Source: Apostichopus japonicus | Lineage: Eukaryota > Echinodermata > Holothuroidea > Aspidochirotida > Stichopodidae | NCBI RefSeq assembly: GCF_037975245.1 | Contig: NC_092575.1 | Coordinates: 25,097,841 to 25,161,840 of the forward strand | DNA: 64,000 nt | Reading direction: 5' to 3' | In this document: positions 41,793-63,268 of the stretch, piece by piece | Layout of the letters: every line of letters starts with the position of its first letter | Numbering within the stretch: position 1 is the stretch's first letter | The notes under the pieces: generated by a model | Databases searched by the model: none | What the model saw: the letters and a program-made list of their open reading frames with translations, nothing else | What the model was told of the DNA's origin: nothing | Position numbers and translations under genes: made by a program

Positions 41793-42472
41793 CATCGAAT
41801 CAGTGGCGTAGCTACGGGGGGGGGGGGGGCCTGGGGGGGGGGGGGCCGGGGCCCCCCCATGAAATCGGCTGGCCCCCCACTGGCCCCCCCACTGGGAATG
41901 GGGTAAAAAAAATTGTAAAAAAAAAAAATTGTAAAAAAAAAAAAAAAAACTCATCAGTGGGATTCACTAATATTTTTTGTTCAATAATTTGGGAAATAGA
42001 GTTACACAATTTTCTCGTCTGCATCTGGCAGAATAAGAATAATACAATATCTGTAGTAATCATGAGAATGGTCATACAGCATGGCATGGCAATGGTTAAT
42101 GCGACGGTTGCGACCATACACCACGAACCTTGTGCATGTGCTGCGCGATATCGATATCTACCAATACATGTTATCGGTCATCGATTGGCACAAAAACCCA
42201 GATTCTGATGACAGCTGCCTCAAGAAACCCAATAAATGGCCTAATTAGCACCGAGCCACCAATGTGGACCATTACCGAAACATCGATGCGTGTTAGTCTT
42301 CCATCCCCTTCCTCTAATGCTATTTAAGTCCACATGTGGGCATTTCCTGCAAACCTACCGGGAGCCCACAGGGGTTTGAGTTGGGAGAAAGGCCTTGACA
42401 CCTTGAAACAACAAATGATGCCAACCATAGGCGTACGAGGCGGGGGGTGCAGGGGGGGCAGACTGCCCCCTA

Positions 42473-42612
42473 AATTTCCAGAGAACAAGAAATTCGGGCA
42501 AAAGTCCTGACAAATTCGGGCAGCCTAAGAGGAGAAAAAATTATATATATTTTTTCTCCTCTTAGGCTGCCCGAATTTTTCAGGACTTTTGCCCGAATTT
42601 CTTGTCCTCTGG

Positions 42613-42616
<4 letters not shown>
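42473..42616. repeat. Fold-back inverted repeat (~65-bp arms)
   Basis: The arm beginning atttccagag and running through acaagaaattcgggcaaaag to gcctaagaggagaaaaaa is followed, after a loop of about 10 AT bases, by its near-perfect reverse complement. I count two mismatches over about 65 bp. It would form a strong hairpin. It sits about 50 bp inside the left end of the 20.5-kb unit and is followed at once by (TA)n. Confidence 0.9.
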
Positions 42617-42661
<45 letters not shown>

Positions 42662-42745
42662 CATACATACATACATACATACATACATACATACATACAT
42701 ACATACATACATACATACATACATACATACATACATACATACATA
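42617..42745. repeat. (TA)n followed by (CATA)n microsatellite
   Basis: About 40 bp of TA repeats then about 90 bp of CATA tetranucleotides. Long Tyr/Val/Cys/Met-rich frames on the minus strand are products of the repeat. Confidence 0.95.
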
Positions 42746-42819
42746 GAGGAGCACCAAATTAAGTGAGGACACAAATATACCAAATTGTCTGCCCATACCT
42801 CCCACGCTAATGAGGTTGT

Positions 42820-43095
42820 CCTCACATTTTTACATACACAGCATCATGGTAAAGGTCCCTATCTGAGGACAACACATACTGTCCCCTTAATGGTTCTTGA
42901 AGCACTACATGTGTATGAAATGTATAAAAATATGAGGACTGTCCTCGCATTGTACATACACTGCATACACACTTAGTGTCAATGAGACATATGAGAGGAC
43001 AGTAAATATGGTCCTCAGATTGGCACTTTTTGCACTACATGAGTAAGAAGTGTATAAAACTATCTGAGGACAGTCCTCAGATTTGTGCATATACC
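42820..43095. repeat. ~135-bp imperfect duplicate with gaggac motifs
   Basis: Two related segments contain atgaggactgtcctcNca or atctgaggacagtcctcaga, a gcactacatgNgtaNgaa block and gtataaaaNtat. Short palindromes such as TGAGGACAGTCCTCA occur inside. Related gaggac blocks lie at 61355-61410 near the other end of the large unit. Confidence 0.55.
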
Positions 43096-43109
43096 TTATA
43101 CACACACGG

Positions 43110-46100
43110 TTTTACATGTGTCAAATAGAGTCCAGTTTACAGCCTGCTGTCATCACATACTGTCAGTAGCATTTTGTGAGTATGAAGCAGTTTGCAGTCC
43201 AGCTTCAGACTAGTCTGGACTACTGCATCCTCAGACTTAAAATTGAATTCAAGATGCCTTGCACTAGGATCCGTCTGACTCGGCCTCCCTTCGACAACGA
43301 CATGGGAGCAAGTCCAAGTGAGTCCAACCTACAATCAACCCACTGGATTAAAACAGTTTCATACCTTATCACAACAGTGTTTGATTTAATTGAATGTTTC
43401 AATTAAGGCTATACAAGTCTTCTGTATCTAGTGATTTTACAGTAACTAGGGATAGCATTCCATTTCTCAACTAACCACTTGATAAAACACACCCAAAAAA
43501 CAAAAGCTTGTGCATTCCATGTGGTGAGGTACTGAGTGGAGACAAAAGATAGCTAACCAAAAGTTTATCTAGACAGTATAAAAAGTATACAAATGAAACT
43601 GACCCTTTCCCCCTTTATTATTACAAGATAATATAGGAACACAAATGGTAGTCGAAAATTTCAATAACATGAAAAGTAGATGTATTGAACAAGCATTTCA
43701 ACTTTAACACAAGGTGACAAAATCAGAACCCAAATGGCAATTTAACATCTCTATGATGCATATGTAGTTGCAGTTTGTTGTTAACTTTTCAGCGTTCTAA
43801 ATTAAATGCTAAAGTACAGACAATACTAAAACATAATCAGTAATGCAGCATTTCAATATTGACATGGTAACAACATGCACCAGTGTAGCTTTGGTTCGTT
43901 ATCAACAAAGAGGCATTTAACTTTTGATGCAAGGGAGTGAACAATATTAGAACCTTTATCTAATACAACATCTCATAACATTGGAAGCAGATGCAACTGT
44001 AGCCATGGTATCTTGGCAATATAATGTTCAATGCAACAATACATACACTGTCAGACTGACCATATAATGTAATGCGACATCTCAATAACATTGGAAGCAG
44101 GTGAACCTGTAGGTTTGGTTTGTTGACAATAGAGTACTCTATGTAGCATTCAATGTCCAATGCAAAGAGGCATTATCAGGTATAAGGTAAGGTAGTAATG
44201 TAATATCAAACAAATAAAAGTATTAAACGTAAACTGACTAAACTAAAAGGTAAGGCTTATAAGATAATGCACGTCTCATGCAAATTGGAAGCAGATGCAT
44301 ATGTAGCCATGGCTTGTTGCTTCTGTCATGTAATTCATCACTTTTTGAAAATGACTCTTGGATTTATGCTACCATCAACTTAAGGAAATTAACATCCCTA
44401 ATAACACAAGTCTGCCACTACACTGATGGCATTACCAGAAATGAGTACATTGTGATTAGATAGAGTCAATGCAGAGCTTCATTCATCTTCATAGCGGCCT
44501 CTGTTCATGGGAAGCGTTTTAATGGTCCTTTCACATCACATAAAAACGAAACCAATATCAAACAAATAAAAGTATTAAACGTAAACTGACTAAATAGAAT
44601 AAAAGCCATTCAAGATTCCAAAATAACACTTAAGAATAGTTGCAAGAGTTCTCATAATAACACTCAGATTCAGAGTAGCATGGATTGTCTCCCTGGCAGT
44701 CCAATAGCTTACCCATAGTCATAGAATGACATGAGAGATGCCAGAACTGAATGTGGTCATGTAAAGCCCAAGAGAAGCAGAACTGGTCATTGAAACCGTG
44801 TTAGAGTATTATTCCACTGCCACAAACATCTTAGTAGGCGCTTAGTGGGCCTGTAGCAATTAATCATTAATGATAAAAATACTGTATTTTGCCAGCACTT
44901 TATCTCAGATCAAACACATGTTTGCATGCTTTGAAAGAGCTGATGTTACTAACGGGTAGTCTACAGCTTATCAATGGTAAATGACTTTTTAGTTTTACTA
45001 GAAGATGAAACAGAACTCTTTATTATCCATGTATTCGTTAAATTATACCAACAACTTCCTCACTTGTATGCAAATGAAAGCAACTGAAACATTCCTGTGA
45101 GAACAATAAAAGTGTAACTATGACAATACAACATTAACTTTAACTACAAATGATAGCAATAATTCAAGTAATTAAGACTTGTCTTATGAAAATGTGGATA
45201 ACAATTCATAGGTATTCTGGCTGTGCCCTAGAGTTTCATACACAGAGGTAGACCTACTACAAGTTTGGCTTATTGATAGAAAGCAGAATAGGCTCAAACG
45301 GCTATTTAGTGCAAGGACTTCAGTAATGAAACTGGAAACATGTAACAGAAATTGAGACTTTCCCGTTTTGACAACACTAAAACCATGACTGGGTAAATCA
45401 AACCACAACTTTCACAGATTCACCAGTAAACCTGAAGCTATGTAGAGGACAATTCTGCATCTGCATCCTTTGGGTTGCTAATGAGAGGATAACGTGGAGA
45501 ACCTTCACAATGTCCTACTTACTTTTTGCGATTTCTCCAAACTACTCCTTCTTTCATCTTTAACTAAGACCTTGATGTATGAAAACTTTCATGTTTATTT
45601 TTTCTTGCAAAACAACACACCGGCCAAAGCTGAAGCACGCAAGTGCTCAAGTGCAAAGTTTTACTTCCAGTACACATGGCTTCATACAGCAGCATAATAA
45701 GTTCCAGATGACATTTTGTTCAGAAATTTTCAAGATATATTGAAAATTTTCTTGTGGTTAATGTATCCATATTTTCCAGTGTTCTAACAAATATTCACAA
45801 GCTGATTTGTTTTGTCTCATTACTATGAGCAGGACAATCCACCATAGGTTAAGTATGTGTAAGCTATACAGTTTCCTTTGTTGACAGTATCAGTAAAATT
45901 AGTCAGTATTTGGGGAAGTTAGTACATGCTTAGTTGGGGTCATCGTTCGAAAAGCAAAACAAACTCAAGTGCTATATTGCACAGGTAATTTAAAAACAAA
46001 GCTAAGTATGTAACAGCAATGAAAACTTTACTCTCACAACAATAAACACAAAATAAAGTCCCATGGCTCATGCGAAGGGCAATTTACCATAACTAAATTA

Positions 46101-46150
46101 AAGACTGGGTAAGCCCTACAGTTTCCACATACGAGCCTAACATTTAGCTG
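43110..46150. other. Inside the large unit; no gene seen, short direct repeats
   Basis: AT-rich region downstream of the SET-recombinase gene. An acattggaagcagNtgNa block recurs near 43978, 44090 and 44285. A direct repeat of about 39 bp starting atcaaacaaataaaagtatt is found near 44205 and 44555. The minus-strand hexamer AATAAA near 45595 could serve as polyadenylation signal for the gene ending at 46154 (inference). Confidence 0.4.
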
Positions 46151-46153
46151 TGG

Positions 46154-46401
46154 TTACTCCTTGTTTTGGAGTTTGCGCAAACACCTCCTTCTTTCTGCTA
46201 CTACAAAATCTTTGATAGTTGACCACTTTCTTCCCTTGAGCAGAGGGTGTTTTTGTTGTACAGCAATGCACTGTTCATAGTTTGGAGTCTGTCCACTTTC
46301 CAGCTCATTTTTGAAGTGCACAAGCACACACTTTTTTTCCTCACATGTCCACGGCTTCCTTCTTGCATAATTTCTTTTACTTCTATCTTCACAGCTGGAC
46401 A
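46154..46401 (-). CDS. SET-recombinase gene last exon
   Basis: A 248-bp exon whose frame, from acceptor tttcaaag, reads VSSCEDRSKRNYARRKPW then TCEEKKCVLVHFKNELESG, with CIAVQQKHPLLKGRKWSTIK and a TAA stop at 46154. This Trp/Cys module also ends related recombinase-like proteins I recall from fish, which supports the link to the upstream exons. A second acceptor 6 bp downstream (tgtccag) would break the frame. Confidence 0.65.
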
Positions 46402-49400
46402 CTTTGAAAAAGAGTAGCAGTAAAAAAAACTGTGATCTGTTACATGAAGAACATGAATCTTCCTTGATAAATAAAGGTTAATAATTAATAATAAGCTGGT
46501 ATTGCTCAGATCATTGCTTCAAGCCAACCATACGATTTTTTTAAATTGCTAGATTTTTCATGGTTATAACGATATAGGACTGTGGTAATTCAACATTCAA
46601 CCTCTGAACCAACGAATATACCATAAGATCATGGCCGGCACTGTGTATAAACATTGCAACGTTCCATCTACATTGCATAGCACATACCTGTATGTTTCTA
46701 GTGTTGCCAAAAAGGTTCTTCTAGCGCCACAGTTAAATGACATTTAACCCTCACCAAAAACAACAGGATTCATGAAGCAGAACTTTACTATAAGAAAAAA
46801 CTATCAAAAAACAACTTGCTCTACCAAATAGGTTCTCTTCCAGGTGTGTATCACCTATAGCCTGAAGGTGTATTCTCAAGTGAAATTAGATGCTAGTTTA
46901 TCTCATTCTAAGCAGAAACAGTCATGGTCTAAGGCTCCTTGACTATGAGTAATTGACACTTTGGAAGAACTATTTTCAGAAGTTACCTTTCATTGCAATG
47001 TTTTACTGGCTGCTTAATCAAGCATTTAATCCGGCAATGGACCATTGCTCGGTGCGTTTACATTCAGACTGAGGACCCCATTGTTTTTTACATTGTTCAA
47101 ATCCATGTACCTTAACCTTAACAATACCCAATAGGAATTCCTTAAAGAACGTGGTGATTCTTTAGAAATCACATCCGAGGACCTGCAATTCTTATGTTCA
47201 GGTCCTCGTTCAAATAACAAAACAAGTGCACGCATGCATGTCCCATCATGACTACACAGGCAACGATAATCATCCAAACCAAAACTTTTTTTCAAATCTG
47301 GGCTTCTGCAGAATTGAGTACATCCTGGCACATATGTGGGGATAATTTCTAGCACCTTTTCTGTTACATGGCTTTGCATTCATTTTGTCTGGTGATTAGG
47401 GAATGTGGTGCAAATGCCACCCAATCATTTGTCTAGTTAGTGTAAACTGTCTTTAGATAACATTTAAGTCCACTGTCAATGACTTCATTTGTACATCTTT
47501 TCAATTTCCAACTGTATCGTAATGAAAAATTGAATTATTGATACCACTAGTACTTTTTAGAAGTTATGAAAAAAATAAATAAAGATGTTACCTGCTTGTG
47601 ACTGCTTTTGAGACTCCTTTTTGGTTCTTCCATCTTGGCCACAAGAAGTGCTACTTACTGAATAGGTTTTTGAAAAATAAAAACATAAGTTGTCTGTTTA
47701 GATATGCAATTAACTTAATTGAACATGAGGAATATGGATTCAAATTACATCCTGTCAGCCAGCCAGCCGGAGCAAGCTTTCTTTTCCTCGACAAGGTCTA
47801 ACAGAACAACAGATAGTATTATGTGCCTCATATGCACCTTTAAAATTGACTTCTATGATTTAATTGATCACTGAATGACTCCATTGGCTAAAAGGTAGGT
47901 TGTACAAATACTGAACTCAGATACCATATTGTTGGACTCATGTGTGTTCTCACTCATGGGCACATGTTGTTACATGTCCATGCATGTACACATGATGTGC
48001 ACGATCGTATCAACAAAAAGAGATTCATGCATAATGTAAAACAATATGATTTGCTCAAATCAGTCAATCAAGCAAACTCTTTTTTCTGTGAACATTTGAG
48101 TTAAGAAGAAAAGCAAACCTGATTCATGTGATAGAATATATTAATAATGTTCAATTTGTTGGTCAAATATAGGCAACAAAAAATCTGGCAAAGAATCTGG
48201 CATATTTGGGGTTGTTTGCACCTATGCAGTTGCATGGCTTTAGTAATTTTGTCAGGTAATTAGGAAGGGGTGTAAATGCCACTTTGTCTCACTCATTTGT
48301 CTTATAGTGATCTGTCTTAAGACTACATGTTTCTCCTGCAGTAATACGTCTATTGTATACTGTGACTGTGCTATACAAGAATTACTTCATTTGTACAGCT
48401 TTAAATTGATGAATTTATGCCAGTTCCTGTCAATGCCTGCAGCTAACCAAACTAAAAAATTCACCTGCTAGTGACTCCTTTTGAGACAGCTTCTTAGTAC
48501 TCTCAATTCGGCCAGAGGAGGTGCTGCTCACTACTGAGGTTTCTGAAACAAATATATTTTTCTAGTCAGAAAACTAACTCAATGGTAGAGAAACATGAGG
48601 AATATTAATTCAAATTAGGAAATTTCAGCCAGTCATGTCCCTTTATAGGCAATTCTATGACCATAACTCTGACAAATGTCATGTGATTTCCCATTTGCAC
48701 AGTTAAGATAAACTGACATGGTTTAATTGATAACTGAGTGGCTGCATTAGGTAGCAAAAGGTTGATATGCACCACTACTTATCCCACATACATCAGTACA
48801 TGCATGTGTACTATTACGATACCTATAGATACCTATAGATATAGATACCTCAGCCAAGTTTTGTAAATAGTGTGTAGCTGATGTAGAAAATAAGTTAGTA
48901 CCCTCATCCCTGCCCTCAAGTCAACGAGTAAGATGCACTTTGAAAACATTTACCAGCCTCTTGGTTGACATTGGGTGTTTCTTCACTGGTGTCTTCGTCG
49001 CCTAATTCTTCACAGCTTGAGTTGTTCTCATCAGCTTCATGAAACAATGAACAATTCAGGTATTATGTTATTGATGTGGCTGTGCTTAATTCTTTAAGGG
49101 TTATACTACCGTTTTACAGAGACCTTCTAAATTATGGACATCAGCCTACAATCCAAATCTAGCTCGCCATGGCATGTCCAACCCATGAGGGATGCTAAGA
49201 AAGTTTTGATAAAAGAGCTTTATCTACCCACCCCAGCCCCTTTTGCATGACAAGGATCAATAATTTGGCTGGCAGCAAAAATGTTGCCAACCACTGCTCT
49301 AAATGGAGACAAAAACTGATATTTCGACAGTATAAGTAACTAAAAAAATGATAATCTTTCTACTTGAATCATTACAAACTTGCAATAACAATTTGGGGCG

Positions 49401-52400
49401 TCAGGCAAATGTCCTTTGAGGGTCTACTTAATGCAAGGTTCTGTGCTCATATGTTTAGCACTTACAGTACTCATGCTGCTTAATTGTGACATCACTGTCG
49501 GTTTGGTGCCACAAAATCTCACACAAGTAACATAAATTTGCTACATGATTACACTTCCTACAGAATTAATATAGTAAAAATATAAACTGTAAGACCCAGG
49601 AGCTGTTTTTAGTTGAGTTATATATTAACCTTTACGTAAAGATATTGTGCACTTACATCCTTCAAGAGAGACATCTATTTCATCCAAAGCCTTGCCTTTA
49701 AATTTGCTGATGGTACCCTCTTCCATCATGATAAGAATCTTTGATACCTTGGCTACTTGCAGTGTGCTTTCAGGCAACCTATAGAAATCTCTATGGATTC
49801 TAATGTCATGTCCCATGTAAGCAGCAAGCAAATCCAATTCATTCTCCTTCAGAGACAGAATTTGGGACATTGTAGCTACATGCTTTCTCAGTTTGCTTGA
49901 CCTAATCAGTTCTGGGTGGCTGGCACCACAGTCGATGGAATACTTTCTCAAGCAGTCATTTGCTGGCACAGGCCACTGAGAATCAAAGTATGGCCTTGCA
50001 AATACATAAGGATTGTTTGATGCTACCTTGGCTGAGCTCCTTGTGGAGATTAACAAATCCACATTTTGCACCATACTTTCAGTCATTAAGATAGGGACCG
50101 TGCGACGCCGTTTCCCAGGAATCTCAACTCTGTGGAACTTCCTCACAAGTGCCTTTTCAACCTCACCTAGACTTTGGAACACTTCTTCTGGTATGTTATC
50201 CATATCAGTTGTTATTTTCTCATACTGATCTAAACGTAGCCTTTCGATCTCCCCACTTCTTCTACGGTTGAACAGATTGATATGTGCCAAAGTCATCTTA
50301 CTTAGTTCATTCCAGTTGTTTGTTGAAGTTACATCATTTTTCAGCTGTTGTTTGTGTAGTTCAGTGTTGGTCTTTAGGTACTTGGTGAGTTTCTGTATGT
50401 CTGATGCCACAGGCTGCAGCTTTGGTTTGTTTATGCTGCGTTTATCCAAAGTATATTGAGCTACGGAAGACACTGAGGAGGACCAATCATTTCTCTTAAG
50501 TGTCTGGAACCCCTGAACCTTTGCCATCAAAGTGCTGTCACCTTTTCCACCATTGGCTTTGATAGCCTCTGAATGAACTATTGCAGCTACTTTGTCAATA
50601 TCGTAGCCTATGTTTCTGGCATAAGATGGTGTCTTGTAGTTGCTCCTTGTTTCATCAAATCCTGCAATATTCTTCACTGCTTTAACAAGAGTATCAAATT
50701 TATCAGGATTTATGCAGTCCCTCATACATGTCACAGATGGATCAATCTTTTTTGATTCAATCAACAACTTTGCTACATCTCTCATGCGCTGGGAAATAGG
50801 AAGGGCATGGTGATCTTCAGGATGTGAGTTTAACAGCTTAGTGCCAAATGTCAAAATAACTGGATCTTTTCTAACTTCCCGTGTAACCAAATCTGCCTGC
50901 ATGCGGGTCAATACCTTTGCATTGAGTGCATCCGAAGCACATTCAGAGGTAGGTAGAAACATCTTTGCTACTGCTTGAATACGGTGAACACGTTTCCTGT
51001 TGCCTCTGGATGAGCAAACCTTTTGGTGTTTCCAAAGTCCATCCTTCTTGAAACTACCATCACAATACTCACATGGCAGGTAGTCTGATGATTCCGCCTT
51101 GTCTAATGCCGTTGGCCTTTTCCGTGGCTTTATTTGACCTTCTCCAGTGTCCCATACCAATTTATTGTGTTTTAAATTCCCTCGGTTTCTCAAAACAGCT
51201 ATCTTTGCTTTTCTATCTTTCCCATGTAATGGAAGAGCATTGATTTCAACAACTAACTTTTCTTCATCATGCTTCTGAGAGCAATGACGAAAAATCTTTG
51301 CAAAAGCGTGATCACAGTAGAGGCAGTAGTCCTTGGAATCCCATTTTCTATTACCCTCTTTGCTTTTACTTGATAGCTGCACATCACTTGTTGTTGCGAA
51401 TGCTTCGTCATCACTTGAAGAGTCTTCCCAGTCTCCGTCATTACTTGATGAGTCTTCATCTTCAGTAAACATTTGCTTCTTGTTAATCTTTGATTGCCTT
51501 TTGTCTGAATATATACCTTGCTCATCTGTGTCTTCTTTAAGTACCTTTCTTTTCTTCATTTTTGCCTTTCGTTTCCTTTCAGTTTTATTTGCAGTTTTGG
51601 GCTCTTCCTCATCATCTTTCTCTGCTGGCTGCACTCCACTTGTGGTTGTGAAGTCTTCATCATATGTTGCTTTGTAAGTTTTTGATTTTCTTCTATCTAA
51701 ATCTGTAGATTCCTCATCTTTGTTGTCTTCTACAAGTAACTTTCTTCTCTTGTATACCTTATCCTTTGATTTGTTTTTCTTCCTGTGAACCTTTGACTTT
51801 GTTTTAGTTTTAATTGCAATTGTGGGCTCTTCCTCATCACTTTTCTCTGCTAGCTGCACTCCACTTGTGGTAGTGAACTCTTTATCTTCACTTGATGAAT
51901 CTTCATCTTCCACAAAATATGTCTCTTTGTAAGTTTTTGATTTTCTTCTATCTAAATCTGTAGATTCCTCATCTTTGTTGTCTTCTACAAGTAACTTTCT
52001 TCTCTTGGATACCTTAGCCTTTGACTTTGTTTTAGTTTTAATTGCAATTGTGGGCTCTTCCTCGTCACTTTTCTCTGCAAGCTGCACTCCACTTGTGGTA
52101 GTGAACTCTTTATCTTCACTTGATGAATCTTCATCTTCCACAAAATATGTCTCTTCGTAAGTTTTTGATTTTCTTCTATCTAAATCTGTAGATTCCTCAT
52201 CTTTGTTGTCTTCTACAAGTAGCTTTCTTCTCTTGGATACCTTAGCCTTTGATTTGTTTTTCTTCCTGTGAACCTTTGACTTTGTTTTAGTTTTAATCGC
52301 AATTGTGGGCTCTTCCTCGCCATTTTTCTCTGCAAGCTGCACTCCACTTGCGGTAGTGAACTCTTTATCTACACTTGACGAATATTTCTTTTTCAAAACA

Positions 52401-55400
52401 TCTTTCTTCTGGTGAATGTTTGTATTCTTGTTAACAGTATCATCATCTGAATCTTCCTCATCAATGATACCTTTCACAAGTAGCTTTCTTTTCTTGTATA
52501 CCTTAAGCTTTCTCTTCTTGCTTGCCTTTGGCTTTTTTGTGGTTTCAGTTGCAGCTTCGGGCCCTCCTTTGTCACCTGAGGCTTCAACTTCATACTCCTT
52601 CATCTTGTCTTCTATGAGTTCCCTACTTACAGGACTGCTTGCTCTAACATTTTCACAGAACTCTTCCGCTTCTACAAGTGCCTTGGAAACCTTTAACTTC
52701 TGTGTGGAAGTATCTGAAGAGTCATTTGAAGAAGCATTTGAATCATCGATATTAGACCTCTCAACTGAATAATCTGGGTCATGGTCTTCCTCCAAGTCAC
52801 TTAAATCACCATTCCCAGCATCGCTGTCCTGACGGTAGGGATGATGCAATGGTATTACTTCTGACAATTGTGAGTCTGAGTTCCAGGATTCTGGAACTTC
52901 TGCAGGAGATAATTGCAAATCTACCTCTCCTTCAATTGGAAATTCATTCGCATGAAAGGGTGATGTATCCTGGGTAACCCCATGACAGATATTTGAAAAT
53001 GGACATGCCAATGATACTACCTCTGACATTTGTGAGTCTAAGTTGCAGGATTCTGGAACTTCTCCAAGCTGCACTCCACTTGCGGTAGTGAACTCTTTAT
53101 CTTCACTTGACGAATATTTCTTTTTCAAAACATCTTTCTTCTGGTGAATGTTTGTATTCATGTTAACAGTATCATTATCTGAATCTTCTTTATCCATGAT
53201 ACCTTTCACAAGTAATTTTCTTTTCTTGTATACCTTAAGCTTTCTCTTCTTGCTTGCCTTTGGCTTTTTTGTGGTTTCAGTTGCAGCTTCGGGCTCTCCT
53301 TTGTCACCTGAGGCTTCAACTTCATACTCCTTCATCTTGTCTTCTATGAGTTCCCTACTTACAGGACTGCTTGCTCTAACATTTTCACAGAACTCTTCCG
53401 CTTCTACAATTACCTTGGAAACCTTTAATTTCTGTGGGGAAGTATCTGAAGAGTCATTTGAAGACGCATTTGAATCATCGATATTAGACCTCTCAACTGA
53501 ATAATCTGGATCATGGTCTTCCTCCAAGTCACTTAAATCACCATTCCCAGCATCGCTGTCATGACGGTAGGGATGCTGCAATGGTATTACTTCTGACAAT
53601 TGTGAGTCTGAGTTGCAGGGTTCTGGAACTACTGCAGGAGATAATTGTAGATTTACCTCTTCCTCAACTGGAAATCCATCCTCATTAATGGGCGATGTTT
53701 CTTGGGTGACCCCACGACAGGTACGTGAAAATGGACATGGCAATGGTATTACTTGTGACAACTGGGAGTCTGAGTGGTCGGACTCTGGAGCATAAGTTGA
53801 ATCTGATTCAAAATTCTCATTTTCCTTCTGTGGAATTTCTTCTGGGACTCTGAAAAAAGCTGGTGGTGGAAAACAATATGAAAATGGCAATCCATAATCG
53901 TAGAGTATTTCTTCATCTGCTGGAATGTGTCGAGTTGCAAACAACTGTAGCTGTGGCTTATTGTCTGGCCCTTCAAAAACTTTCACTTTGCTGTTTATCT
54001 CTTTTCTACTTCTGGCGTGGTTGACTAATCGTCCAAATTTCCATGGATCATCATCCCTTGGCTCCTCTGAGGCATCGACACTGGAAGAAACAAACAATTT
54101 TTTTTTTAAACAAAACCACAATTAATGACAAGATGCACGAAATAGAAGAATCATTTCTAAACACACATTCCACCGCCTGTCTAATCTCAAGATTCAGCAA
54201 TTCCTTACATAAAAATGATAGATGTACTGCTAGGGTTGAGTATTTGATATCAGTTGACCTCTGACATCTACCCAGTTTGACACACTATGAACTCAACCAT
54301 AGTACATCTACGTACATATGGGTTTGCTTCACATATGTTGAAGTCTAATGACCTCTGATTCCCCTTAAGTCAGGGTTTTATTTGAACGTATGATAACTTA
54401 ATACACATGGTCAAGCAAAAGTTCAGAAATAAAATGAAAATTTCAAAATTCACTTTCAGCACAAAGAAGCTCTGCAAGCAGTGTACAAAACTAATATGAC
54501 TGTGTGTTTATGAGCCTACAAAATGCATGCATTATGAGCACGATAAACATGCGTGTTAAGGTTCTAAAGTATATGACCTATGTTACCTTCAGATGACCTC
54601 TTTGGCATCTCAAAACCAAAGGGTTTATGAAGAGTAAATAATTGCACAAACACATGACAAAGTTCATCCGAAATGTTTTTCTTACATCTGTGTGTTACTG
54701 TTGAACACAGGCGCAAGGTGACTTTTTGATTCCTTGCCAATGTGAGATGCAAGTTCTGTTGAGAACCAAACAGACTGCTTCTGAATGATACATTGCTTGT
54801 GAAGGTCTGTGCACAATTAACCTTAGTAAAAAGAAAGCAAGGCAGGTTGACATCAAGTCCCAAAGTCATTGTAAAGTAATTGCATATCAACTTTCTGAGA
54901 TTGTAACACGTTATTGTGGGGGCCACCAACAGCAGATAGATAAAGTTCCTGTTCAAAGGTTTTTCTTGCATTGTACTCATAAGTAAAGTTTAATTCAAGA
55001 ATGTCAATGTAACGATTTCGCTGAATGTGTCTGCAAGACACAATTGTTCGCCCTTGGGCAGCTACCCACCAAGGTTGAAGAAGTTAAACCAGGCCATTTA
55101 AGGGGATTTCTTGAACCAAAATCTGACTCAAACACGTGTACCCACACACACCTTTTGGCCCTTCCCTCGTCATGAACTTCTGGTCACACCCTGGAACCCC
55201 ACCAAGGGTGGCCCATAAGGTGTCCTAGCATCTGACCTCTGATTGCATGACATTTGTTGCTATGGTAATTGAGATAGCTTGTACACCCCAACTGGCTAAG
55301 GAATTTCAATATTTCATCCTCTCCATGGGAGCTATGCATGTTAAAGTTTTCACTGAAAATGTGCTCAGATCTGCACTTAAATCAGTACAAACTGTGTATA

Positions 55401-58022
55401 CTTAGTACTTCGTAAAATTGTCAACAAGTTGAAACTTGATATGAACCTGGAACTTATTCCTTACTTAGTTTTCAACCCTTTTTAATATTTTACTTAATGG
55501 TTTCAGACTACCTCTGACATTCCAACAATCTATCTAAATCAGTATCATTTACTCATACTTTGAAACATCACGTAAAAGATCTCACAACATTATAATGTAA
55601 TGGAACATGAACTTCATTCATGCAGAGTAAGTTTGTAGGTTTGCTTACCACAACTTTTGATGTTTCCAACGGAAAAAAAACCTAAATCCAGTCTCCTTGA
55701 TGGTATCTCTCTTATCTCCTTCTGTTGCATTTACCAATTCTCCCTTGTAAGTAAGCAGAAAATCTCCTTTCTCAAATTTTCTTTTGGTAAAAATAGCTCT
55801 TCCTGAAAGACAAGGACACAAAAATGAATTGATTTTCTGTTGCCAGAATAATTTTTATTTTCACGTAAGCCTAATTGCTTGTCATTTCTGCTTCTTTCCT
55901 TCCTCCAATTTTATCTTTCTTTCTCTATGCTGCGCTTAATTTGTGTAAACACCAAATATTGCTGGCTCATGTCTATGGAAAGTCTCTTTGAGTCTTACAT
56001 ATCTACCCCCTCCGAATGGCTAACCCACATGAGCCTGACAGACATAATCCTTAGATTTTCAAGCACGAGGAGAGATGATCAACCATATGCATACATGCAT
56101 GCAGTCTGGTATGATAGCCCTCAATGGGAGAGATGTATGCCATCATTGTCAATTTAAACCCAGCATATCTGTGTTTAATGCCACTGAGATGATAAATGTT
56201 CTGTTAGAAAACACGAAGTCTGTAATTTACTGTTACAATAGTCACTTTTTGGTAGTAACTTTTTAACTTAAACTGTTAATGGCAAAGGTGTTTAGACTAC
56301 TTAACTTGCAATACAGCAAAGTGTCTTAATACCACTTTTAAAATATTTGGAAATGTCTGGAAATTTGATCATCTTCTTACTAAAAATTTGGTGTGGTCTA
56401 CTTAAATACTAATTTCTGTATGTATGATTTACTAGAGATCTTGCTTCCATGAGATCAATTTTATTTGCAACATGCTGGTTTAAAAGGGGCACTGTCGAAA
56501 GTTGTATGCCCTCAGAATGATGTTTAGTAGGATTTCAATCCTAGTCTTACTACAATATCAGTCACAATGCATTCAGTTGATAGGAATAAATAATCATTAT
56601 AAATGTGAACAAGATTTTAATTGCTATAGTGTAAGAGGGTTTAGTTTGAATAGTTTCTTCTTCATGAATCAAGAGTGTGGATCGACCGAAAGGACTTTGT
56701 AATAAGAGCACCACATTTGTTGACAAAGGCACCCCATAATTGGTAGAAATTTTGAAGCTAGGTACCCGACTGGTCCGACCCGGCGGCATACCAGGTACCT
56801 GATTTTTTGCCTGCCCAACTATTTCTTTGACCAACATGCCACCTGCACAAGTTTGTAAATCATTACATCTGCCTAAAGGCCATTTTAACAGAAAAGATCA
56901 CTTGATTATTAGTGTCTAGATATTGATTATAAACTTTGAGAGTAGAAAAGATCCCTTTTTGTTTGCTTGCTCATTTGAAAAGTAAAATAGCATTTGCATC
57001 TTACAAGCGCATAAGCAGATCTCCATTGCCCTAGTAGTACTATGTACCAAATGTGATATAAATTTGTAGAACCCTCAGCAGTCTAAAAAGACACCTGTTT
57101 TGCTTTCCCAGTGGTGAAGTTCTAAATGGTGCATGTTAATGGAAATTGGGTTTTTAGAAGAATTTTTGAAAGTTTACTGCTCCATCGTTTGTGCCAGTTC
57201 TGGTAAAAGCATTTGACTGTAGGCCTTCATGTCAAGAACATTACACTGGGTTGTATTAACTGTGTACAGTTTTGTCTTAAACTTCATGAACATGATTTTC
57301 TGAGATTTTGCTTTCTCCTTTATTGGGTTAAGCAGGATGTTGATATTTTTGTGGTTTATTTGCCAATTCAGTAAGTGAAGGATATTACACGAAAGTGCCT
57401 TATCAGATCATGAGTAATGAAAAAATGATTATTTACAAACAAAAAGGGACATTGACCAATGGCTCAAACTGATAATAATTTTGAAACAATGCAGCATCAA
57501 CTCAAGGAATACCCCTTAGGGAGAATAAACCATGGATCATTACCCCCACTTCTCACCAGCATATGATTCAATACTCTGTGTACAATTTGTCATCTTATAA
57601 CCAATTTTGAACAACACACAACTCTAAGCATTTAAAATGATTCCAATGATTAAAACTCAACTCAAAAACATCAAAGTTATCGAATGATTGTTACATTAAT
57701 GTTTCCTATAAAGATCGACCATTGCATAACACAGCGCTAGATCGATCTAGATCGACGTGATCACGTCAATGGACCCTTAATTCCCATACGATTTACGTAA
57801 TAGTAGATAGAAATTCCACACAAAGAGTGCACTCATAGTTATAATCCATTCAATTCAAAGATTCATTAACACAATATATGTGTTAATACCTTGTAACATT
57901 TTGTTCATCAGAAAGATAGGAAACAAAAGTGTTATGTACTGGACAGAAGTAATATTGTGATTCTTACCTTTAATGGGAAGAATTTTCATGAGAAAACCTT
58001 CTTGGTCGTCCATCATCTGCAT
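46154..58022 (-). CDS. KMT5A-like SET / zinc-finger / tyrosine-recombinase-like fusion protein (7 coding exons)
   Basis: Minus-strand gene. Exons in coding order: 58022-57968 (start ATG; exon from acceptor at 58027), 55802-55649, 54080-49657, 49034-48954, 48542-48465, 47657-47592, 46401-46154. All are GT-AG and in phase, giving 5106 nt or 1701 aa plus stop. Domains: SET (about 19-130), two near-identical Ser/Asp/Lys-rich repeats and further basic repeats (about 150-960), C2H2-like fingers (about 985 and 1072), tyrosine-recombinase-like domain (about 1340-1515), and a C-terminal basic module of about 65 aa with KPWTCEEKKCVLVHF and GRKWSTIKDFV. KMT5A monomethylates histone H4 Lys20 in the known family. 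The recombinase half resembles an uncharacterised multi-copy family in aquatic animals, perhaps Crypton-related. I know no standard gene with this combination. Upstream 5' exons are not certain. Confidence 0.75.
46990..47400 (-). repeat. Dispersed repeat copy B
   Basis: Shares long ordered blocks with 59990-60260: cattcagactgaggacccca, catgtaccttaaccttaaca, cgtggtgattctttagaaat, aggtcctcgttcaaa. On the minus strand both copies are open and encode a related peptide (FGLDDYRCLCS, RSSDVISKESPRSLRNS), so the family may once have been coding. It is inside the intron before the last exon. Confidence 0.7.
47592..47657 (-). CDS. SET-recombinase gene exon 6 (duplicate of exon 5)
   Basis: A 66-bp exon encoding VSSTSCGQDGRTKKESQKQ plus SQA. 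The acceptor used in exon 5 (tttcag) is tttcaa here, so I place the splice at the attcag 12 bp further on. This drops four codons and keeps the phase. The donor GCAG|gtaaca matches exon 5. Confidence 0.5.
48465..48542 (-). CDS. SET-recombinase gene exon 5
   Basis: A 78-bp exon with acceptor tttgtttcag and donor GCAG|gtgaat. It encodes ETSVVSSTSSGRIESTKK then LSQKESLA. It is a paralogue of exon 6, part of a tandem duplication of about 0.9 kb. Confidence 0.6.
48954..49034 (-). CDS. SET-recombinase gene exon 4
   Basis: An 81-bp exon with acceptor atgaag and donor GCTG|gtaaat. It encodes an acidic linker (DENNSSCEELGDEDTSEETP). The acceptor lacks a strong pyrimidine tract, but phase is kept on both sides. 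Confidence 0.55.
49657..54080 (-). CDS. Giant 4.4-kb exon 3: SET C-half, repeats, fingers, recombinase-like domain
   Basis: Begins with VDASEEP and the SET signatures WKFGRLVNHARS and EEILYDYG. Then follow two 244-residue copies (DNA period 732 bp, about 53072-53775 and 52336-53040) and about four shorter copies spaced 225-255 bp (51628-52340), rich in Ser, Glu and Lys. Two Cys/His fingers follow (CLYCDHAFAKIFRHCSQKH and CEYCDGSFKKDGLWKH). The recombinase-like part shows RRRSGEIERLRL (Arg box), KLRKHVATMSQ, YMGHDIRIHRDFYRLP (Gly-His and Tyr). The donor GGA T|gtaagt at 49656 ends the exon. Without splicing there it would stop at 49625 after a CKCTISLRKG tail, a possible alternative end. Confidence 0.85.
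55649..55802 (-). CDS. SET-domain exon 2
   Basis: Encodes GRAIFTKRKFEKGDFLLTYK and then GELVNATEGDKRD, closely matching the N-terminal half of the KMT5A SET domain (GRGVFAT, GDFVVEYHGDL, KKRE). It begins after a ctttcag acceptor and ends at a TG|gtaagc donor. Joining to 54080 gives L-C-V-D-A-S, like the YCVDAT of KMT5A, which confirms the splice. Confidence 0.85.
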
Positions 58023-58027
58023 GTGAC
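57968..58027 (-). CDS. First coding exon of the SET-recombinase gene
   Basis: A 60-bp exon with acceptor cttcacag (before 58027) and donor AAAG|gtaaga. The ATG at 58022-58020 gives MQMMDDQEGFLMKILPIK, which runs in frame into the SET exon. No in-frame ATG is open further upstream if the preceding exon is the one ending near 60811, so this start is preferred. Another undetected 5' exon could extend the protein. Confidence 0.6.
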
Positions 58028-58389
58028 CTGTGAAGTAAAAATCAAGCGATAGCTTTGACTCTTAGATGTTACCTTAAAGCACAATAATTAAGTTTAGAAA
58101 CATGTTTCAAAAGTATGAGAATGTTAGTATTGTGTTTGAAAGAGGAACATTTTTTTAATCTTTAAGGATGGATATTTCAAATATACTTTGAACAGTAGCG
58201 AACGTGATGTCACCTTGGTAAATGCAGATTGCGGCATAACCCACACTACATACAGTTCCTACAATAGTCACAACAAAAACTGCGTTTAAATACAGATTGA
58301 TGGGAGTGCTAAAACTTCAAGGAGCTCGTTTTGCCTATATGCCAGCATAACGTCATTCACAAAATAAATTGGTGCTTCTGGTGAAAGAC

Positions 58390-59970
58390 TAGTGAATTTA
58401 ATAACCAGAATGCAAAATGCATTGAGGTTTCGATGACTTCAATGCACTAGACTTCTGCTTGTTAGTATAACCAGAACTAGCTGTTACACTATGGCATGCT
58501 AACACAGGTCAGTCTGTACATGGATATACACACCTCCATCAACAACAGTAGGGTTCTTGTACTCAATGTTATGAATCCGCACACCAAGTATTACAAACCA
58601 AACCAAATCTCTAATAACTTCGCACATTAAGGTTGCAGAGGAGTCCACTTATGGACAATTTAGATTGAAATATGTCCACGAAATTTCAAAGAATCAACTT
58701 GAAAGAAGCTAATACAGGTCACTGGAGGTCAACCTGAGGTCAAAGGTCACCCAATTGCAGGTCTAATATTGTATTACAATAGCGTAACTCCCAACCTTGA
58801 TGGACATTTGGTTCTCAAGTTATTGCAAAAATACTAGATTTTGACCCCTGATTGACCTTTGTTGACATTGGATCACATGACTGTTATGTTTAGAAACAAT
58901 CCCTTACCCCATTCACAACTAGTCCCAAAATATCAAATTTGTCGGACCCTGCCAATGGTAGTTTCACAAGTTATTGAGAAAAACTAGGCCAACATTACAG
59001 CCAACTCCATGAAGTGAAAGCAAATCTCAAGTTCACAGGTGCTTGACCTAGTTTCTCCTTGGCAGCTGGCCAAGAAATGTTTTGAAATTTCGCGGTACCT
59101 GTGCAAACTAACATCCAACCAGAACTACCAATTATCTACAAATATTATCTAGAGAAGGCATGCTTCGCCATTCAAGTGCACTATTCCATCGAAATCACAT
59201 CAACTCTTTAGCAAAATATCCATACGGTTGAGTGACAAGTGTTGCAGTAGCTCTAGCACTTTTATATATGGTCTGCAAGCAAGCCTTGGAAGACACTGTA
59301 ACACACACACATGTATGTAGCTATGTACATAGCAATTCAGGACTTCTAGCGACACACTTAAGTCAATGGGGATATTGTCGCGAGTTCATATTCAAATCTA
59401 CGGATGCCCGTAAGATCATTTTCAATTGTCAAAAGGCTCTCCTATTCTTATGAGGCGAATTGCCCATGTCATCTACTTATAGGCTGGACGATGGGAGATA
59501 CCGTCTATTATGAAAAGGTTTTTACAAGTTGACCCCTGGTGACCCTAAATGACCTTCGACATCCACCAAAAACGATAGGTTTTTTGTACTTAATGTGGTC
59601 AACCTACATACCAAAAATGAAGTCAATGCAAGCTTTGCTTCTTGAGATATAATGTTTACAAGCTTTTCACTATTTGACCCCTGGTGACCCCAAGTGACCT
59701 TTGACCTACACCAAAAACAATAAGCTTCATGTACTAAATGTGGTACTTCTACAAACAAAATATGAGATTAGTCCAAGCTTTGTTCGTTGAGATATCATGT
59801 TTACAAGCTTTTCACAATTTGACCCCTGGTGACCTTAAATGACCTCTGACCTACACCAAAAACAAAAGGCTTTTTCTACTCAATAAGGTATTCCTATGTA
59901 TCAAATATGAGAACTGTCCAAGCTTCCCTTCTTGAGATATCGTGTTTACAAGCTGGGCGTCACAAACGCA
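58390..59970. repeat. Dispersed repeat copy with several ~120-bp units
   Basis: Left part (58390-58640) is the inverted match of 10720-10940. The right part (59520-59970) has three to four units with tttgacccctggtgacc, caccaaaaacNataggNtt, and agctttNcttcttgagatat. It ends at gtttacaagctgggcgtcac and a (ca)n tract, the mirror image of 10380-10420. The open frames here are not genes. Confidence 0.7.
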
Positions 59971-59984
59971 CACACACACACATG

Positions 59985-60262
59985 TTTGTATTACATTCAG
60001 ACCGAGGACCCCATTGAATTTTCCATTGTTCAAATCCACGTACCCTAACCTTAACAATACCCCATACAATAGAATTCTTCCAAGGACGTGGTGATTCTTT
60101 AGAAATCACAACCGAGGATCTGAAATTCTTTTGTTCAAGTCCTCGGTCAGTTAGCAAAACAAATGCATACACACACGCATGATTGCAAATGTTACGATTA
60201 TCATCTAAACCAAAAACCAGATTTCTACAAGAAGAAAATGTCGAATAGGGGAGCATGTAGTT
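59985..60262 (-). repeat. Dispersed repeat copy A
   Basis: Companion of 46990-47400. Conserved blocks include cattcagaccgaggacccca, accctaaccttaacaatacc, gtggtgattctttagaaatc and caagtcctcggtca. The minus-strand frame 59960-60256 carries the related peptide FGLDDNRNICNH and RSSVVISKESPRPWKNS. Confidence 0.7.
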
Positions 60263-60813
60263 TTCACATGGTTAGGAAGAGAAAATTAGAACTGAGGACA
60301 ATGTATCAAAATCTTCCACCAGACAGTTTTCTTAAAGGACTAATGGATTGTTAACGTTATAAGTTAGCCTAGCTTACATTACGTCAATATGAGGACTTCT
60401 GAACGGTGGGCAATCAGTTTGAGGCTTAACACGAACTAAGGTTGATATTTTCGTAAGTGCTTGACAGTACTGATATTGGAATACAACATCCCAAACCATA
60501 ACACTACAGCTAATCCTAGGTGTGATATTATGTAACATGAGAACAATCTCACCTCTCTCTGGCCTGTCGATCCCTCATTGCCATCTCATATAAATTAGCC
60601 TAGCCTACACAGTCAATCTGAGGACTTGTGAACGGTAGGCAAAGACTATAGTAGTAGACATCATAGGCCTAGCCTATTATGTGTACATGATTCGCCACTA
60701 GGCCTACTCCGAGTTTATGGCGATACTTTCACTAGTGCGTGGCAGTACCAATATCGGAATACAACGGTCCAAACCAGGGAGCTGTATAACAGCAATTTAC
60801 CTTAACTAACCTT

Positions 60814-61125
60814 TCACAAAACTGTCTCGAACTCGAAGTATGTTTGTGTTGGAGGCGTGCAGCTTGGCGCTGCGTCTTGCTCTGTATTGGTTGGTAGGTC
60901 TAGTGGTACTGGTACTGGGAGTGGTAGGCCTAGCTCCTGTTGTTGATATGTCGGTGTGTTATTCGCTGATACTGGGATAACCACGCAACCACCTTCATAG
61001 AAAAAGCGGCTCTGAATTTGTCGTAAGTTGGAAGCTATTTCATATATCCATTTCAAAAGAACCGCAAATATGACAAACAATGATATCGCTACAATAATAG
61101 CAACGATAGTATGCAGCGTGAACAT
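60814..61125 (-). CDS. Hypothetical 103-aa single-pass membrane protein
   Basis: ATG-started frame with an N-terminal hydrophobic helix (about residues 7-27, AIIVAISLFVIFAVLLKWIY) followed by a basic/polar stretch and a Pro-rich tail (LPLPVPVPLDLP). It ends at TGA 60816-60814; three bases later a good donor, AAG|gttagt, follows. It may be a small gene or the first exon of the SET-recombinase transcript, in which case it would be an upstream reading frame. I recognise no family. The composition looks protein-like, unlike the neighbouring repeat-derived frames. Confidence 0.35.
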   Translation of the reverse strand: MFTLHTIVAIIVAISLFVIFAVLLKWIYEIASNLRQIQSRFFYEGGCVVIPVSANNTPTYQQQELGLPLPVPVPLDLPTNTEQDAAPSCTPPTQTYFEFETVL

Positions 61126-61455
61126 GACTTGGTCAAGTGCACGACTGAACTACATACTATAAACGCACGGTCGTGATCGCCTACACAACACGCATGTATG
61201 CCATACCCAAAATAGAGGGCGACATGTAGCTTACCAAAGAAAGCCAGTGTATGCAAAATATACACCCTTAGTTATTTTTATGAGCAAATGAGGAATGATG
61301 AGAAACTTGTCAGGGGTTCTTAGACAATGCACTAGATGAAGGTGATACGGGTCCTAATGTGAGGACATTAAAAAAGTCCTCATATTTCTAAATCGTCCTC
61401 ATATTGCCGTCTTGTAGAGACAGATGTGCTCACAAAGATGGCTTCTCAAGTACAT

Positions 61456-61506
61456 ACATACATACATACATACATACATACATACATACATACATACATA
61501 CATACA

Positions 61507-61551
<45 letters not shown>
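61456..61551. repeat. (CATA)n followed by (TA)n microsatellite
   Basis: About 80 bp of CATA tetranucleotides then about 18 bp of TA, near the right end of the large unit, mirroring the array at 42617-42745 in distance from the end. Open frames here are low-complexity. Confidence 0.95.
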
Positions 61552-61553
<2 letters not shown>

Positions 61554-61743
61554 TATAAATATGCAGTAGCTTGCCCGAATCTTTTTCAAATTTTTGCCCG
61601 ACAATTCCATGATTTTCTTTATTTAGCATCATGATGCCCGAATATTTCCGTGTAACACCACCGTAAGCGCAGTTCATCTGGGCTACCACGCTTTTTGCAC
61701 GATCAATTTTTTTTCTTCTAACTAGTCAATTGTATACCTGGAC

Positions 61744-62403
61744 CAAGGGCGGCGGAACCGGGGGAAAAAGGGGGCACGTGCCCCTCCCCCACTTTTCCTC
61801 AGGTTAGAAATGTGCCTTTTTCTACATAAAAATTGAGGTGCCTCAAGTTAGCAAGAGGCCAGGGAACCAGATTGAACACTCGGGAAGGGCCGTTTCCGGC
61901 CATCTGAGGGGTTTGTAAAACCAAAAATTTTCTAAAAGTACGCTCCGCGCCAACCGATGGTGGCGCTCCGCTCAGATAGCCGTGCATACAACTTTGCAAA
62001 TCCTGGCTAAGCCCGTGACTTTTAATGAACTTCTGTTAATCAAACTCAAAGCATTTTCGAATAGAAAAAATTTGTTAAGATATTAACAAGAAAAAAACTC
62101 TAATTCGGAAGATTCCTACATTAGCAACAAGCATGATTTCACCTCATTTTGTCTCAAAAGAAAACTTGTTCCTTGTTTCCCAATTTGCGCATTGGATATT
62201 GCAGTGCTAGTATGCATATTTTCCTTGAGGGGGGGGGGGGGGGACGTTGATGGAGTGATGTGTATACACAAATAAGATAATAAAATAAGAGTTATAAAGG
62301 GTACTGAATATAACGCTGCATCATTCCAATCGAATTTCTGCAAAGTGCCCTTTGATGTCGGTGCCCCCCCCCCCCCAGATTAAAAGTGCTTCCGCCGCCC
62401 TTG
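61744..62403. mobile_element. 660-bp hAT-like MITE
   Basis: CAAGGGCGGCGGAA at 61744 and its complement TTCCGCCGCCCTTG ending at 62403 form 14-bp inverted ends. They are flanked by ACCTGGAC (61736-61743) and ACCTGGAT (62404-62411), a 7 of 8 match. The interior holds G-runs and the palindrome-like block gcgccaaccgatggtggcgc at about 61948. No transposase is present. It is inserted in the right part of the 20.5-kb unit. Confidence 0.75.
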
Positions 62404-63200
62404 ACCTGGATATCCCCGACATGAGTGTATAAAAGAAACATTTTCTTTTTCATGGATGGTTGGGGGGGGGGAGTGTCTACAAGCCTAGAAGTACAGGTTT
62501 ATCATATTCTTTGTTATATTTTATACTTTTTTGTGAGACAAATTGCAGTCTCACCCGACACAGCGACATTATCCCGCCTACGTGTCGTTGAACAATGTTT
62601 TTCTGGAGGTAGCTGAGTACTGTGTTAAAATAATAAATAAGGTAACTAAATATAGCAGCTTAAAAAATATACTGTCCCATTTTTCCCCTTCAAAGTGATG
62701 TTACCATTTTTTCTTCTTCTAAATTACCAAATTTTTGGGGAACTGTAAATTTCTAAAACGTGAGATTATAAAATAAAGAATGTTTAGATGCAACTTGCAA
62801 GGCCTCAGAAGTGCCGTTTCCGGCAATCTGAGAGGCATTGTGTGCCAAAAATTTTCTTGTTCGCTTCGCGCCAACCGATGGTGGCGCTCCGCTTAGATAG
62901 TGTCACGGGAACTTTCGGGCACAAAAATCTCTGCCCCCCCAAACTGAAATGGTCCCGTACGCCTTTGATGTCAACTTCACTCAAGTTAAAAGTCTGGCTG
63001 AGTTGGCAAGGCCAGTCAGCATGAAAGAGAAATTTTTTTTTTGCATTTCTGTCACCAAAGTTGCACATCATTTTGGTTCATATTTTGCCTCACAGGTGCC
63101 ATCTCCTGCGATCTGGGGGGTGCTGAAATCTCAAATTTTCTCTGTACGCTCCGCGCCAACCAAGGTGGCGCTCCGCTCAGATAGTAACCTCCGGCCCCCC
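61790..63200. repeat. Shared core block in three copies
   Basis: A related segment occurs at about 61855-61985, 62795-62905 and 63095-63185. Each has a gNcNgttNccNgcNatctgagNgg-type lead, aaaattttct, and then cgctNcgcgccaaccNatgg with tggcgctccgctNagatag. The three copies lie in the small, middle and outer hAT-like elements respectively, suggesting that these families are related or carry a common subterminal motif. Confidence 0.75.
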
Positions 63201-63268
63201 CACAAGAAAGAACAGCCTCCCCATGGCCCCCCCACTCAAAAAATCCTAGCTACGCCACTGCATCGAAT

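Follow-up and report, generated by a model that had tools for sequence, protein, structure and literature searches.

Large mobile units moved by tyrosine recombinases are known from fungi as Starships, in which the recombinase is located at one element end. Cryptons have no inverted ends, carry short direct terminal repeats of 4 to 6 bp and have a circle as proposed intermediate (PMC3212892), and CryptonV is recorded as inserting specifically in microsatellites (PMC8869645, citing Kapitonov and Jurka 2012). Endogenous nimaviruses encode tyrosine recombinases with a zinc-binding domain, integrate in (TAACC)n and differ among themselves in recombinases and targets, majaniviruses measuring 278 to 401 kb (PMC10871703). 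Here, we report an 18.7-kb repeated element of the holothurian Apostichopus japonicus, flanked by (CATA)n arrays and carrying a gene that joins a SET domain to a likely tyrosine recombinase (the SET-recombinase gene). It was found in a 64,000-nucleotide stretch of DNA (assembly GCF_037975245.1, contig NC_092575.1, positions 25,097,841 to 25,161,840, forward strand), referred to as the window.

The element resembles CryptonV as a probable recombinase-type DNA transposon in microsatellites, lying in (CATA)n in three of three copies, while a second recombinase family of the genome ends in (CA)n in four of four copies at its one mapped end. Neither a size of 18.7 kb nor a fused SET domain is mentioned for CryptonV in the cited passages, and the likeness is one of insertion habit. 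As in Cryptons, there are no inverted tips and the termini bear direct repeats, which here are long microsatellite arrays and not repeats of 4 to 6 bp; DUF3504 was not reported by Pfam here. With nimaviruses, as far as the cited text describes them, the element shares a recombinase (here a likely one) with a zinc-binding domain, integration in simple repeats and targets that differ by recombinase, but it is not a large viral genome; no viral gene was recognised among the few frames scanned, a scan that did not include the nimaviral core genes. Starships are likewise large units moved by a tyrosine recombinase, but they are fungal, and in the present element the main frame sits close to the centre, at distances of 6.9 and 7.3 kb from its two ends (the gene's first exon was not located). 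In titles and abstract openings, with Repbase and most subscription journals outside the search, no SET-recombinase element, large animal recombinase transposon or microsatellite-specific one was recognisable as this element. On the best reading, it is unusual among microsatellite-inserting recombinase transposons in its size and its fused SET domain.

The preliminary description of the window had taken positions 42426 to 62967 for a single giant hAT element with the gene as cargo. We propose instead that three stacked events are recorded here, and that the 18.7-kb unit is probably an autonomous DNA transposon that integrates in microsatellites and is moved by its own SET-tyrosine recombinase. 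The nested parts are as follows.

41793..41800, no strand: left target-site duplication of the outer element, CATCGAAT, identical to 63261-63268
41801..63260, no strand: outer hAT-like element, CAGTGGCGTAGCTACG ... CCTAGCTACGCCACTG, interrupted; three other copies, each with matching 8-bp flanks
42418..42425, no strand: old duplication of the inner element, ATGCCAAC; the ATGCCAAC/ATGTCAAC pair also stands around copies L045 and L046
42426..42657, plus strand: inner element, left part (left end of the preliminary description); matches the start of complete short copies and includes (TA)n
42657..42745, plus strand: (CATA)n array left of the insert; absent from the other inner copies read
42746..61451, minus strand: recombinase element of 18.7 kb, whose last base could equally belong to the array; terminal pieces of about 500 bp at three genome places
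61451..61536, plus strand: (CATA)n array right of the insert, in the same direction as the left array
61537..62967, plus strand: inner element, right part (right end of the preliminary description); about 96% identical to the remainder of short copies L039 and L044
62968..62975, no strand: old duplication of the inner element, ATGTCAAC, also found on either side of copy L047
63261..63268, no strand: right target-site duplication of the outer element, CATCGAAT, identical to 41793..41800

Genome searches were run on the window's own assembly (671.6 Mb, 35 contigs). The terminal 500 and 502 bases of the 18.7-kb element were each matched over their full length (500/500 and 502/502) at exactly three places, namely the window (18,706 bp), C15:25742064-25760783 (18,720 bp) and C11:27483836-27502284 (18,449 bp); three weaker extra matches were the same ends aligned inverted. 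All three copies have identical end bases, lie between (CATA)n arrays that run in one direction and keep a fixed orientation relative to CATA; where compared, the two further copies are about 98 to 99% identical. The junction (CATA)4GAGGAG was found at zero mismatch at exactly three genome places. That the gene lies in a mobile unit, as first suggested, held, the unit being this repeated element with its own ends and two more copies. Compared with each other, the terminal 800 bp gave inverted matches of 11 to 13 bp only, none at the tips. Short inverted motifs lie just inside both ends.

42934..43078, no strand: three subterminal GAGGAC..GTCCTC inverted pairs (42934, 42995 and 43066), left end, shared with the ends of both other copies
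61361..61381, no strand: subterminal GAGGAC..GTCCTC inverted pair, right end, shared with the ends of both other copies

All four pairs lie at most 335 bp from an element end (mean 0.005 per element in 200 single-base shuffles), none was found in window positions 1-42000, and they are candidate binding sites.

A protein search gave at least 34 matches (31 of 651 first-look candidates scored), with identities of 100% for the window itself, 98% for C15:25748931-25753397 (interrupted by a single stop) and 99% for C11:27491173-27495402 (in two stretches, again with one stop). It also returned a rearranged, broken relative of the SET-recombinase gene (G000:C17:20777400-20790010, L103), parts of which are 77 to 90% identical and one recombinase fragment of which, about 8 kb away, is 98 to 99% identical. 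The window and C15 elements are 98.3 to 98.9% identical in the pieces compared (98.9% outside the main frame, 99.0% inside), and their 13 synonymous and 28 non-synonymous codon changes among 1,490 codons give no strong overall sign of purifying selection for this pair. Over the recombinase, the stretch 49746-50745 differs at 2 of its 1,000 bases, compared with 1.1% of the sequence beyond the frame (Fisher p 0.003, for a stretch picked post hoc).

The ends reported earlier, CATAGGCGTACGAG at 42426 and an inverted CAAAGGCGTACGGG terminating at 62967, were confirmed, as were their flanks, ATGCCAAC and ATGTCAAC, which agree at 7 of 8 positions; apart from each other, neither end has a further match in the window at up to 2 mismatches. 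CAWAGGCGTACGRG was matched 623 times forward and 632 times in reverse (1,255 in total, against 2 + 1 = 3 for the reversed control), and 'GAG' termini typically stood opposite 'GGG' termini among the 100 places listed, so that the pairing is not due to chance. Among the complete copies readable in fetched loci, 13 of 14 were 344 to 1,682 bp long and one was 4,330 bp; their flanking 8-mers agreed at 8/8 positions in ten, 7/8 in three and 4/8 in one, and with at least 7/8 in 13 of 14 the earlier assignment of both ends to one hAT-like element with 8-bp duplications was upheld. The inner element is best described as a non-autonomous element of about 1.6 kb with asymmetric ends (CATAGGCGTACGAG/GGG), called hAT-like from its ends only. 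A 71-bp inverted repeat (96%, 7-nt loop, 42471-42619) near its left end varies in form among copies.

The three other copies of the outer element (2,594, 2,575 and 2,335 bp) have duplications TCAACACC, GGTATTTC and CACACACA, each 8/8 and the last within a CA repeat, so that with the window's own all four copies match at 8/8. Inner and outer elements both show the 8-bp target-site duplication and short inverted ends of hAT elements, but differ from these in that no transposase of their own was seen (a search for an autonomous copy was not made). All three other outer copies carry the inner element uninterrupted at the same place: bracketed by AATGATGCCAAC ... ATGTCAACTTCA, it measures 1,665 bp in L045 and 1,682 bp in L046 (two places on contig C2, the same copies as L039 and L044), and in L047 (contig C3) the inner copy is 1,566 bp with ATGTCAAC on each side. 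In the 20.5-kb unit, L039 and L044 correspond to ~265 bases at the start and ~1,485 bases at the end, and the homology of the three copies with the window extends outward to 41801 and 63260. The inner element is therefore nested in the outer one, and the window copy is interrupted. Because the ATGYCAAC pair also surrounds the uninterrupted copies, it is an old duplication inherited with the composite and not the sign of a 20.5-kb jump. The preliminary description had foreseen an uninterrupted outer element with a single ATGYCAAC in place of the unit; uninterrupted outer elements exist, but what breaks the window copy is the 18.7-kb insert and not ATGYCAAC.

At the break, L039 and L044 read GGAAATATATA(TA)n TAAATATGCAG, and the window reads (TA)n(CATA)n, the 18.7 kb, then (CATA)n(TA)n TTATAAATATGCAG. 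The microsatellites noted earlier near both ends (42615-42745 and 61451-61553) are present, but they belong to one interrupted site. In a scan of fetched loci, four or more CATA units were found only adjoining ends of the 18.7-kb element.

The gene lies on the minus strand, and its recognised parts are the following.

49625..54121, minus strand: main open frame, 1498 aa, with the C-terminal half of the SET domain (Pfam SET 1.6e-6), a repeated linker, two zinc-finger-like motifs and a recombinase-like domain
55663..55803, minus strand: exon encoding the SET domain's N-terminal half, in the open stretch 55645-55854 (match to positions 1-43 of the Pfam SET profile at E 0.0029, which misses the curated cut-off)
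46154..46477, minus strand: possible C-terminal exon with a basic/Trp motif, an open frame without Pfam match that may belong to this gene

The C-terminal 594 aa are 35 to 50% identical to seven other proteins of the genome. All eight homologues have RR.GE, GK.xR.V, RK(H/Q), GH and YR in this order; the pattern was defined after viewing the alignment, and the boxes that tyrosine recombinases build on arginine, lysine, arginine, histidine and tyrosine follow the same order. Two zinc-finger-like motifs lie ahead of the domain. Pfam Phage_integrase gave weak matches in three of the eight (best, 6.9e-5), and one non-significant profile alignment lines up GK, LR, GH and Y together. From these motifs, the C-terminal domain is likely a tyrosine recombinase, its fold being unproven. 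The fused SET domain might, speculatively, methylate histones and so aid targeting or expression. The eight members had no match in PHROGs at E 0.01. On viral contigs there were 20 pattern matches, none of which was confirmed. The linker (51550-53789) consists of internal duplications, a pair of about 730 bp at 93% and units of about 225 to 255 bp.

Flanks of the other two copies were read past the array for about 105 bp on the left at C15 and for 335 bp and 46 bp at C11; on the right at C15, the sequence read ends while still in a (CATA)n(CA)n array. No hAT-like ends were seen in these short flanks. Beyond the arrays, flanks differ among copies or (C15, C11) adjoin the same dispersed repeat, which we take to be SINE-like (short interspersed element) from a tRNA-like box, a name that no family search supports. 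The left flanks at C15 and C11 are copies of this repeat, 88% alike over 34 bp and thus more diverged than the element, which favours separate insertions over one duplication common to both. In fetched loci, the repeat occurs four more times with an ACAT-rich tail and no element, so that a target may be present beforehand; none of these fetched copies, however, ended in a long pure (CATA)n tail. CATA arrays of at least six units gave edge counts of 164 + 175 and, for the other edge type, 359 + 417 (about a thousand) in the assembly; at 60 to 150 bp each, they make up about 0.01 to 0.025% of the genome, a rarity from which three of three insertions in (CATA)n would arise by chance with a probability of about 1e-11 or less (both figures from a rough count).

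A distant recombinase family of 693 aa, 38% identical to the SET-recombinase and with at least four copies listed, ends in (CA)n in all four at one mapped end, where the homology of three copies to the fourth, used as query, stops at (CA)n and the element starts with CATACATGTAACAGGCTCCAATCGGGGAC or nearly so. Three of the four outer flanks look as if derived, with divergence, from a single dispersed repeat that terminates in GCGT(CA)n (one pair is 82% alike over 231 bp, the third shares short stretches only), and the element side is 97 to 98% identical over the 118 to 138 bp compared and 99 to 100% over 3.9 kb. Toward the far end, which is unmapped, four of five sampled places of one copy matched, three of them inside a tandem array. 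GGGGAC motifs are repeated near the mapped end, and the GAGGAC-type inverted pair is absent there. At L108 (C21:4866501-4873500), a long tandem array of about 200-bp units lies upstream of the 693-aa gene, with GGGGAC roughly every 200 bp. The dispersed repeat at three of the copies (L113, L114 and L115) shares stretches of 20 to 64 bp (70 to 90%) with tandem units at 59515-59954 of the window, within the SET-recombinase element.

In a family of 745 aa, two copies are collinear over at least 18 kb, matching at 12 of 12 sampled places near the gene. Of ten sample pairs placed farther out, three matched where expected (about -10, -13 and +10 kb from the gene, the +10-kb pair within a tandem array); for those at -17 and -22 kb, a repeat was all that matched in the second copy, and the remaining five pairs had no match at the expected place. 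Ten loci of this region, sought as ribosomal DNA, gave nothing in Rfam. Units of a further recombinase family, which has long open frames, lie at G000:C13:2774200-2792500 and C13:8986800-9004900 (L067, L063, L068-L080); they are collinear and near-identical over at least 18 kb, with a ~205-bp tandem array on one side and a GC-rich region with a repeat recurring every ~4 to 5 kb on the other.

Several observations weigh against an element that is moved by its own recombinase into pre-existing microsatellites. The canonical HxxR histidine is replaced by serine or threonine; none of the three Phage_integrase matches reaches the curated cut-off, and in two of them the best stretch lies upstream of the R box. 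Alignment (hhalign) to a profile of XerD, FimB, FimE and lambda Int was not significant, a PDB profile search returned two weak zinc-finger-like matches and no recombinase, and an AlphaFold model of the window's recombinase part alone, made without relatives, had a predicted local distance difference test score of 31 and was not used. Inner copies read at the break site hold (TA)n or no array and not (CATA)n, so the arrays could have arrived with the 18.7-kb element; of the four element-free repeat copies, only L049 has a long, imperfect ACAT-rich tail, the other three being short (2 to 3 units). Coding and non-coding identity are similar, the full copies number only three, and the C11 copy was read at its ends only. 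Within about 8 kb of the 745-aa gene, no perfect microsatellite of at least 20 bp was found, the ends of that family being unmapped.

That the 20.5-kb unit moved in one piece, as a giant non-autonomous hAT-like element with gene cargo, is scarcely tenable. Its ends and 8-bp flank pair are genuine and both ends are intact, but copies in the same outer element measure 1.57 to 1.68 kb, which already contradicts it, and the short flanks of the other copies of the gene element hold no such ends. The longest end pairs fetched (14.4 and 10.8 kb) and a 4.3-kb pair at first appeared to support it; their similarity to the unit is confined to the outer ~230 bp and the final ~1.45 kb and does not extend to the gene region (the 14.4-kb pair lacks a flank repeat, and the 10.8-kb pair has ACCACCAC on both sides), and they are thus short elements broken by other inserts. 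Such termini being common, the two ends might belong to two separate short elements, an outcome that the preliminary description had named as fatal to its own proposal; the left and right parts, however, fit together at the microsatellite into precisely one short element, which contradicts that origin and lets it be practically dismissed.

Host homologous recombination between (CATA)n arrays, for example through circles, could have spread the 18.7 kb with the recombinase uninvolved. We regard this as unlikely, although arrays flank all three copies in the same direction and the recombinase fold is unproven: the second family, at 38% identity, ends in a different microsatellite in four of four copies, the long open frames come with equal-scoring copy groups, and the subterminal inverted motifs are restricted to the ends, points that fit a self-moving element better but leave host recombination some probability. 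Segmental duplication or an assembly artefact would agree with two of the copies lying 0.6 Mb from each other on a single contig and with the similar dispersed repeat that adjoins the C15 and C11 copies on one side. That origin is nevertheless very improbable, since the remaining copy is on a different contig, the end bases are identical, the abutting repeats (88% over 34 bp) are more diverged than the element and the divergence of about 1% between the two C15 copies is evenly spread.

In the self-moving transposon that we favour, the history would begin with a hAT-like element of about 1.6 kb inserting into the outer hAT-like element and duplicating ATGYCAAC. The composite of 2.3 to 2.6 kb would then move by its outer ends, a copy landing here and duplicating CATCGAAT, and the 18.7-kb element would finally integrate in the inner element, at its (TA)n/(CATA)n microsatellite. 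The SET-tyrosine recombinase, binding the subterminal GAGGAC inverted pairs, may excise a circle between short-core (CATA) repeats, which would join ...TTCTCAAG to GAGGAGCACC through CATA; reintegration would be a crossover between the CATA of the circle and that of the target microsatellite, so that each side would keep CATA repeats and nothing else would be duplicated.

If so, the gene would be the engine of its own large element and not the cargo of a giant hAT-like one, and microsatellites, usually seen as passive, would be docking sites for large recombinase transposons. With targets specific to each family, one could look for the part of the recombinase that recognises the simple repeat, and the SET-integrase fusion would allow testing whether a transposon marks chromatin where it lands. 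Tentatively, and with somewhat less than even confidence, an entire radiation of tyrosine-recombinase transposons may be present in the genome, all of them large (19 kb, perhaps more) and every family using its own microsatellite, (CATA)n or (CA)n, with dispersed-repeat tails as many of the targets and a SET domain of histone-methyltransferase type fused to the recombinase in one lineage, an animal counterpart of Starships with a chromatin-writing integrase. For annotation, the locus warns that end pairs with plausible duplications may be inherited from a nested copy.

The 18.7-kb element holds one further open frame.

60814..61149, minus strand: open frame of 111 aa with a hydrophobic stretch and no significant Pfam match, of uncertain gene status

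Also within the element, dispersed repeats at 47058-47284 and 59991-60215 form an 80% direct pair, 12.9 kb apart, and 58407-59982 has an inverted match (66 to 75%) to window positions 10378-10935.

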